From positions 94,345,435 through 94,409,434 of the forward strand of contig NC_084665.1 of the NCBI RefSeq assembly GCF_028389875.1: a stretch of DNA of 64,000 nucleotides. Reading direction: 5' to 3'. The notes under the pieces were generated by a model that did not search any database, was not told where the DNA came from, and saw only the letters and a list, made by a program, of their open reading frames with translations. Every line of letters begins with the position of its first letter. Within the stretch, counting starts at the first letter, position 1. Made by a program: the position numbers and the translations under genes. This DNA comes from Rhea pennata. Its lineage: Eukaryota; Chordata; Aves; Rheiformes; Rheidae. Shown in pieces: positions 21,901 through 34,304 of this stretch.

Positions 21901-22319
21901 ACTAGACAAATTGCCTTTGAGATGCCTGTTCCCTAGTAAGTTTAGGAAAGCCAGTGTGACTAGAAAACTAATTTTGTTATCTCAAATTAGTTCAGATGAA
22001 TCTCAGTCACAAAGGAGAAGACAATCATTGAAAAGTAACTAGAATTATAGAGATCTTCTGTCTATTTGTTGCATATTTTAGACTGTTCTTTTTCTTAATA
22101 TTTATGAGAGTAGAGCTGCAAAGTGAAGGTGATTTCAACATCATTGGTGGTTAGAGTCTTGGGGACATGTGGGGCTACAACGGGAACAAAGATTATTTCA
22201 GACATTTAATCAGAGAGGAATTGTATTGGAGCCAGCAGCACTCAGTGATATAAATCATTCTTTTGGGGGTGAATGGCAAGATCTTCACTGTTGCACAGAG
22301 GCAGGCATAGTGCTCTGAA
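18966..22319. other. Intergenic, no gene recognised
   Basis: No gene is recognised. The stretch contains a short imperfect direct repeat (listed separately) and a pyrimidine-rich tract at about 21000-21150. Frames at 19719-20045 and 20946-21209 carry no identifiable domain. Confidence 0.55.
20554..20616. repeat. Imperfect 27-bp direct repeat
   Basis: Two copies of a unit beginning AGGAACAA and ending GCTTAATTTCCT(T/C)C lie at 20554-20580 and 20590-20616, a 36-bp period. They differ at only a few positions, which points to a local tandem duplication. Confidence 0.8.
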
Positions 22320-22510
22320 TTATAGAATGGTTGAGGTTGGAAGGGACCTCTGGAGATCATCTAGCCCCAAAACACTGCTTAAGCAGGGTCATTTAGAGCA
22401 TGTTAGACAGGATCACAGGTTTTGAATATCTCCAGAGAGGGAGACTCCACAACTTCTCTGGACAACCTGTGCCAGTGATCACAGTACTCTCACAGTAACG
22501 AAGTTTTCAC
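22320..22510 (-). mobile_element. CR1 LINE 3' end, 5'-truncated (copy A)
   Basis: The antisense CR1 3' end starts with a tail remnant and 'ggttggaagggacctctgga' at about 22335-22355, then 'catctagccc' and the 'aagcagggtca' stem. It continues through the codons for the C-terminus of ORF2. The copy stops abruptly near 22510, exactly where the tail of a second CR1 begins. It is about 190 bp, 5'-truncated and non-coding. Confidence 0.9.
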
Positions 22511-23030
22511 AGAATCATAGAATCAGTAAGATTGGAAGGGACCTCTGGAGATCATCTAGTCCAACCCCCATGCTCAGCAGGGTCACCTTGAGCATGTTAA
22601 GACAGGGTTGCATCCAGGCGAGCCTTGAAGATCTCCAGAGAAGGAGACTCCACAACCTCTCTGGGCAACCTGTGCCAGTGCTCTGTCACTCTCACAGGGA
22701 AGAAATTCCCCCTCACATCCAGGCGGAACTTCCTGTGCTTCAATTTCTGCCCACTGCCTCTTGTCCTGTCACATGGGACAACTGAAAAGAGTTTGTCTCT
22801 GTTCCCCTGACACCCTTCCTTCAGATACCTATGCACATTGATAAGATCCCCCCTCAGTCTTCTCTTCCCCAGGCTGAAGAGGCCCAGCTCTCGCAGCTGT
22901 TCCTCATAGGGCAGATGCTCCAGTCCCCTAATCATCTTCGTAGCCCTGTGCTGGACTCTCCCCTGAAGCTCCATGTCTCTTTTATACTCGGGAGCTCAGA
23001 ACCGGACATAGTACCCTAACTCCGACTACA
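22511..23030 (-). mobile_element. CR1 LINE 3' end with open ORF2 C-terminus (copy B)
   Basis: The 3' tail repeat 'cagaatcatagaatcag' at about 22510-22526 is followed by the canonical antisense 'ggaagggacctctggagatc'. On the minus strand an uninterrupted 125-codon frame (22974 to 22597) encodes the conserved C-terminal end of CR1 ORF2. Recognisable blocks in order are [36 protein letters not shown], a [14 protein letters not shown] block and [20 protein letters not shown], which matches the family pattern downstream of the RT domain. The ATG is only the first in the frame, because the natural start of ORF2 was lost by 5' truncation. This intact frame marks the copy as one of the younger CR1s in the window. 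It cannot move on its own. Confidence 0.95.
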
Positions 23031-34109: not shown

Positions 34110-34304
34110 AATCATAAAACTGGTAAGGTTGGAAGGGACCTCTGGAGATCATCTAGTCCAACCCCCCTGCTCAAGCAGGGTGACCTACAGCATGTTAGAC
34201 AGGGCTGCAGCAACAAGGACCCCCCCTTGCTGAAGCCCAGGCTTGAACCAGAGACCTTTAGATCTTCAGTCTAATGCTCTTCTAGCTGAGCTATTTCAGC
34301 CCCC
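34110..34304 (-). mobile_element. Composite tRNA-Phe/CR1-tail SINE-like element
   Basis: Read on the minus strand this is a compact unit of about 190 bp. It consists of a 73-nt tRNA-Phe(GAA)-like head (34300 to 34228), a short G-rich linker (34227 to about 34211), and a CR1 3' tail (about 34210 to 34110). The tail contains GCAGCCCTGTCTAACATGCT, the AGCAGGGGGGTTGGAC segment, GATGATCTCCAGAGGTCCCT and a terminal TTTTATGATT repeat remnant. Head and tail share orientation. An older CR1 of opposite orientation resumes on both sides, so head and tail appear to have arrived as one insertion. I see no clear target-site duplication, which is common for CR1-mediated insertions. Passerine birds are known to have CR1-tailed, tRNA-derived SINEs, but I cannot say whether this copy belongs to a named family. 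Confidence 0.75.
34228..34300 (-). pseudogene. tRNA-Phe(GAA)-like sequence forming the SINE head
   Basis: Exactly 73 nt on the minus strand, beginning GCTGAAATAG and ending GCTTCAGCA. The D stem GCTC/GAGC is perfect, and so is the anticodon stem TTAGA/TCTAA. The anticodon loop CTGAAGA reads GAA (Phe). The acceptor stem pairs at six of seven positions, with an A-C mismatch at the seventh. The T stem (TCTGG/CTGGG) relies on several G-T pairs. The internal Pol III promoter is present as an A box (TAGCTCAGCTAG) and a B box (GGTTCAAGCC). The weak T stem, the acceptor mismatch and the directly attached CR1 tail argue against a working tRNA gene and for a tRNA-derived retroposon head. Confidence 0.8.

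Follow-up and report, generated by a model that had tools for sequence, protein, structure and literature searches.

It was asked whether a tRNA-Phe-like sequence and a CR1 3′ end, which lie side by side in a 64,000-nt stretch of the lesser rhea genome (Rhea pennata; the whole stretch is called the window), form one retroposed unit, and where the parts of such a unit came from. Few SINEs are reported from birds, and in the literature surveyed those mobilised by CR1 are passerine (PMC5729268). With good confidence, the unit was retroposed and belongs to a non-autonomous SINE family of the lesser rhea that CR1 mobilises; the founding locus of the family would be a tRNA-Phe locus that today makes up a tandem array.

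Anatomy of the unit

The features of the unit and of related loci are collected in Table 1. ARAGORN called a single tRNA in the window, tRNA-Phe(GAA) on the minus strand, and the match of Rfam RF00005 to the same 73 nt was the sole one above the gathering score in 64 kb. Both bear out the head as read in the first-pass annotation. Its A and B boxes were assigned against what we take to be the box consensus. The CR1 3′ tail on the same strand and the G-rich linker between the two, also proposed at first pass, were recovered as well, the tail matching CR1 copies, two of them in the window. At the first of these, an open frame that includes the end of ORF2 spans 22597-22974. The outer limits of the unit stand as drawn, including the GGGG at the 5′ end, which is counted as part of the unit because most 5′-intact copies show a G-run ahead of the head.

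Table 1. Coordinates of the SINE copy, its parts and related loci (window positions unless a contig is named)
Feature	Position	Strand	Basis or remark
CR1-tailed, tRNA-Phe-headed SINE copy, whole unit	34110..34304	-	Rhea pennata
GGGG leader, SINE 5′ end	34301..34304	-	G-runs before the head in most copies with intact 5′ end
tRNA-Phe(GAA)-derived head, young short-form type (A7, A18, A20)	34228..34300	-	ARAGORN; Rfam, 51.5 bits; 40-copy consensus, window copy among the 40
A box (TAGCTCAGCTAG), putative internal Pol III promoter	34282..34293	-	read from sequence
B box (GGTTCAAGCCT), putative internal Pol III promoter	34239..34249	-	read from sequence
Linker, 19 nt, G-rich, very probably from the 3′ trailer of an array-borne tRNA-Phe gene	34209..34227	-	15-nt identity
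CR1-derived tail, 99 nt: ORF2 end, 3′ UTR hairpin, octamer microsatellite start	34110..34208	-	alignment to CR1 copies; hairpin folded from consensus; sequence
Last seven codons and stop of CR1 ORF2 frame, within tail	34185..34208	-	frame taken from CR1 copies upstream of the junction, continued by eye
CR1 3′ end, 92% identical to SINE tail	22508..22612	-	alignment
Second CR1 3′ end, more diverged, 86%	22317..22411	-	alignment
Tandem array, one tRNA-Phe(GAA) gene per 907- or ~1062-bp unit	C24:8321794-8638597; C30:946359 to at least 1134522		small contigs
Probable Phe-Ile chimera: complete Ile SINE, directly preceded by a Phe head and trailer-like sequence	C1:20881950-20882700	-

The whole tail aligns to CR1. 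Five rhea CR1 copies that carry the end of ORF2 upstream match it at 92-96%; the parent CR1 is thus represented by the five copies above 90% among ten tails without the Phe linker in 256 kb examined. The consensus of the family ends in an octamer microsatellite (ATTCTATGATTCTATG) and contains no TTTT. In the window copy the octamer is mutated, and the mutation creates a TTTT at 34116-34119, as read from the sequence. Given this TTTT near its own 3′ end, the window copy is probably dead.

A dispersed family in two forms

Copies were sought in the assembly from which the window comes (180 contigs, 1.269 Gb in total). At least 39 other near-complete copies (at least 168 nt) share 88-95% identity with the 195-nt unit, counted among the best 40 of 1997 candidates with the window copy included. 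A 37-nt pattern across the junction of head, linker and tail had 87 matches with up to 3 mismatches allowed; a shorter one of 25 nt had 111, and the reversed control had none in either case. One duplicated region accounts for 23 of the 87 matches, and for 22 of the 100 matches listed for the 25-nt junction. Merging the 25-nt matches with those of the long form described below yields about 130 independent loci, a lower bound; the merging was done by hand, allowing for 10 matches in common (100 of the 111 were listed) and entering the duplicated copy a single time. The family is dispersed and multi-copy, and its whole unit is conserved. The first-pass annotation took the unit for a retroposed SINE copy, Phe-headed and CR1-tailed, and remarked that a multi-copy family would be notable. 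Its reading is supported: head, linker and tail occur together at many dispersed loci. The outcome named there as refuting, that they are never found together elsewhere, does not hold.

The consensus of the short form (195 nt; 40 copies, window copy included) consists of a G-run leader, the 73-nt head, the linker, the CR1 tail and the octamer (ATTCTATG). Mean divergence of these copies is 4.8% (1.8-9.4%), which is a low estimate, the copies being the best matches to the window copy. Folding of the consensus 3′ UTR gave a nested hairpin of CR1 type (z -1.98), a kind described for CR1 tails (PMC5729268), while folding of the whole unit was uninformative (z -1.71). The signal of target-site duplications is weak: candidate duplications of at least 7 nt flank 12 of 73 near-full-length copies, versus 6.3% after shuffling of the flanks.

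A long form was recognised in three of eight further head matches, which join CR1 farther upstream. Its junction pattern occurs 50 times (control 0). The long-form consensus (228 nt) was built from 23 aligned copies, namely 20 of the 50 matches and the three earlier ones, several of them without the 5′ part of the head. The short form is exactly 33 nt shorter, and the difference lies inside the CR1 part. Beyond this, five sites separate one consensus from the other: head positions 7, 18, 20 and 25 and one site in the tail. Mean tail divergence is 5.9% in the long form (22 of 23 copies), 4.9% in short copies with G7 (15 of 15) and 4.5% in short copies with A7 (41 of 45), a count that omits four of five copies from the duplicated region and four that have neither G nor A at position 7. 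Copies were chosen by similarity or by a near-intact junction, so that these divergences and the age order are biased. By that order the window copy, a short form with A7, belongs to the youngest type.

The tRNA-Phe array as probable source of the head

A 54-nt tRNA-Phe core, which we took to be the canonical sequence, has one exact match, on contig C27 beside a tRNA-Asn gene. A variant with 3 mismatches is present in 18 copies on contig C24, all on one strand. The C27 gene (C27:1055662-1056315) stands head to head with the tRNA-Asn and is the sole canonical core match within 3 mismatches besides the array variant. A pattern of tRNA end and trailer from the array gave 686 matches at up to 3 mismatches (control 0); among the 100 listed, 96 are on C24 and 4 on C30, and the listed C24 matches are spaced by about 0.9-2 kb, mostly by 907 or 1062 bp. 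All of 16 sampled units were called tRNA-Phe(GAA), with Rfam scores of 60.9-67.8 bits in the five units scanned. The array units may supply tRNA-Phe, a putative role.

The head of the canonical C27 gene differs from the array type at five positions (7, 16, 57, 59 and 66). The short consensus carries the array base at four of the five and the long consensus (23 copies) at all five. Among 68 aligned SINE copies, the array base is found at position 16 in 65, at position 57 in 64, at position 59 in 65 and at position 66 in 67; at position 7 it is found in 19, five of which come from the duplicated region. The head of the long form departs from the array head only at positions 3, 25, 62 and 70, all by CpG transitions. 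The linker of the SINE consensus has 15 identical bases (GGGGTCCTTGTTGCT) in common with the array trailer upstream of its TTTT. The longest identity in 20,000 dinucleotide shuffles was 13, and the trailer of the canonical C27 gene has only 5 nt in common with the linker. The first TTTT of the array trailer lies at +42, and the SINE departs from the trailer at about +30. By this comparison of sequences, the array locus is very probably the source of the Phe SINE head.

Three observations stand against a simple origin from the array. Twelve trailer nucleotides (about GTGGCAGGGCGG) are missing in the SINE linker and are present in all 16 sampled units. A proto-SINE, in which the undeleted array trailer is fused to CR1, had 0 copies at up to 3 mismatches. 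A change at C56 is found in 15 of the 16 sampled units and not in the SINE, and therefore the donor belonged to an older or less common type of unit; the exact donor unit was not found.

Two other assignments were rejected. The canonical C27 tRNA-Phe gene as direct parent is ruled out by the diagnostic positions and the trailer. A functional tRNA-Phe gene at the window locus is ruled out by its score (51.5 bits versus 69.8 for the C27 gene) and by a consensus without a TTTT terminator.

A second family with a tRNA-Ile-like head

The rhea genome harbors a second, larger family of CR1-tailed SINEs, genome-wide, with a tRNA-Ile-like head and the linker CTCATTTGA. The head was assigned only by alignment (62 of 68 positions) to a sequence that we presume to be tRNA-Ile, and ARAGORN called no tRNA in 19 copies of this family. 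Forty matches were scored of 4120 candidates, with at least 90% identity over at least 130 of 140 nt and the query locus included. The junction of this family has 768 matches (control 0); the number of independent insertions is lower, because some matches lie in clusters that look amplified. In the consensus of 19 copies, the last 60 nt of the tail are those of the Phe SINE (60 of 60).

The two families meet at one locus on contig C1. The Phe head there is not followed by the Phe-SINE tail, and the Phe-Ile junction has one match at up to 3 mismatches, which makes it single-copy. The locus may also represent two adjacent insertions rather than one chimera.

Proposed birth and mobilisation

For a family with a common head, trailer and tail, present in a long and a short form, the following course is proposed. 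An active copy would be transcribed by Pol III from the A and B boxes of the tRNA-Phe head. The transcript would continue into the CR1-derived tail, because the family consensus has no internal TTTT. The CR1 reverse transcriptase would then recognise the hairpin and the octamer of the tail and copy the RNA by target-primed reverse transcription.

The family would have been founded from the tRNA-Phe locus whose tandemly amplified units lie on C24 and C30 today. A precursor from an array gene would carry a long 3′ trailer, because the first TTTT is 42 nt past the tRNA. Most likely, a CR1 reverse transcriptase was at work on the 3′ end of CR1 when it switched template to such a precursor at about +30. 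Copying to the 5′ end of the precursor would have produced the long form. The short form, which then became more widespread, would have arisen from it by loss of 33 nt within the CR1 part. The fusion would have dropped the terminator and retained the promoter, and its product would therefore be transcribable and mobilisable again. The fusion of CR1 with a precursor, trailer included, would also explain the otherwise unrelated SINE linker. Somewhat favoured, in addition, is the reading that a stepwise SINE birth can be followed in one genome, from an array or single-copy ancestor via the union of a long-trailer precursor with CR1 to the short form, and that head capture is perhaps repeatable. 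Capture of heads from precursors with unusually long trailers may be a recurrent means for CR1 to generate new SINEs, because one CR1 tail has served at least two heads in the rhea and because a single-copy Phe-Ile chimera exists.

That a degenerate tRNA-Phe pseudogene came to lie beside a truncated CR1 by chance has a negligible probability. CR1 3′ ends are common, as illustrated by ten tail-like stretches of at least 60 nt without the Phe linker in 256 kb, but the 87 junction matches with an empty reversed control and the 39 or more other dispersed copies show the same head, linker and tail recurring, and the explanation is rejected. Descent from the passerine TguSINE1/PittSINE lineage through a swap of heads is highly improbable. 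The architecture is the same, PittSINE itself was proposed to derive from TguSINE1 by a head swap (PMC5729268), and the rhea has a family with the head type of TguSINE1. The passerine tails, however, derive from CR1-X1_Pass (PMC5729268), whereas the rhea tail matches rhea CR1 copies at 92-96%, and CR1-X is reported absent from Palaeognathae, where nearly all CR1 is nearest to CR1-Y (PMC8665684, the main text of which nowhere names the rhea). Because of this distribution of CR1 types, the rhea SINE probably arose independently.

The direction of transfer could also be reversed, with a SINE copy as the source and the array as its product, since head and linker are common to both. This is highly improbable: none of the 16 sampled units has a CR1 tail or any remnant of it after GTTGCT, the units keep the 12 extra trailer bases and the TTTT, and they retain intact CpGs that are lost from the SINE consensus. 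A CR1 insertion could instead have been joined to a tRNA-Phe locus at the DNA level, by recombination or gene conversion and with no template switching, which is unlikely. The array is tandemly amplified DNA, and the overlap of about 2 nt between trailer and CR1 at the junction, judged by eye, fits both mechanisms equally. For PittSINE, gene conversion or rearrangement was regarded as a slightly less parsimonious option (PMC5729268). An RNA template is the better match for the trailer break, which at about +30 falls inside the inferred precursor and before the TTTT at +42. At the separate locus on C1, moreover, the Phe head with trailer-like sequence is joined to a complete Ile SINE at its 5′ end, the position at which a reverse transcriptase would jump. 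Template switching is accordingly preferred as the mechanism of the fusion. The order from array ancestor to long form to short form is likewise a proposed one.

Relation to described avian SINEs

TguSINE1 and PittSINE have CR1-X1_Pass-like tails, marked by four diagnostic nucleotides, and tRNA-Ile and tRNA-Asp heads, respectively (PMC5729268). PittSINE, from Old World suboscines, resembles the Phe SINE in its tRNA head, CR1 3′ tail, hairpin and 8-bp microsatellite and differs in the tRNA-Asp head, the CR1-X1_Pass tail and the passerine host. Acquisition of its head by template switching was proposed, and a pitta genome was said to be needed before the alternatives could be tested (PMC5729268). 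The rhea SINE has a tRNA-Phe head instead, and the rhea genome retains both a long form and a probable donor locus. TguSINE1 (zebra finch, Eupasseres) is likewise a CR1-tailed tRNA SINE; as described in PMC5729268, it has the CR1-X1_Pass tail and no Phe head, and it was set apart here by that description. The head of the second rhea family is of the tRNA-Ile type found in TguSINE1, a similarity that is possibly convergent. The head of the window family is neither tRNA-Ile nor tRNA-Asp. The Phe SINE would work like TguSINE1 and PittSINE, yet is very probably neither, and the comparison with passerine SINEs made at first pass is an analogy only, the host being a rhea.

Other avian SINEs are mobilised by AviRTE (ManaSINE1, GymnSINE, MeloSINE and others). 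Their heads vary on a common LINE-derived tail, which stems from the AviRTE UTRs (PMC4844689). No bipartite AviRTE UTR tail was recognised in the Phe SINE, the whole tail of which aligns to CR1, in a comparison made with CR1 only. No Phe-headed or palaeognath CR1 SINE appeared in the titles and abstracts listed for the literature surveyed (most subscription papers, Repbase and Dfam lay outside the survey), and no palaeognath SINE family in the SINE-related passages of PMC6857515, PMC6735826 and PMC4511969. As far as this literature goes, the Phe SINE has not been described before, while its general kind, the CR1-mobilised tRNA SINE, is known.

The presence of two CR1-tailed tRNA SINE families in a ratite suggests that CR1-mobilised SINEs arose at least once more. 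To our knowledge, linkers between a tRNA head and a LINE tail are usually of no known origin. The rhea linker would be the trailer of an identifiable tRNA gene. Ottenburghs et al. 2021 reportedly treated tRNA-like sequences embedded in bird transposable elements, and the Phe-SINE family may already be on record there. With the probable donor locus, the origin of the linker, the long form and the short form all surviving in one genome, template switching and its rivals become directly testable in the rhea. The insertions should serve as markers for the relationships of rheas and of palaeognaths more widely.

Amplified DNA with SINE copies

The duplicated Phe-SINE variant occurs 23 times in amplified DNA on two contigs (C61:12109-3705623 and C146:1563906-1728540). 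By the 37-nt junction matches, neighbouring copies are separated by about 50-170 kb and in one case by 2.1 Mb. The amplified DNA on C61 is located at one end of an 82-Mb contig, which is perhaps the Z chromosome, judged from its size only; C146 is a small contig. Three stretches of the C61/C146 region have about 3-4 kb in common at 91-96% identity. Clusters of identical Ile-SINE junctions were found at C144:724947-1118269, C149:611544-1046652, C16:2130958-2163489 and C18:580201-809363. Their spacing is roughly regular, mostly about 4 kb on C16 and about 40-85 kb on C144 and C149, which suggests further amplified regions.
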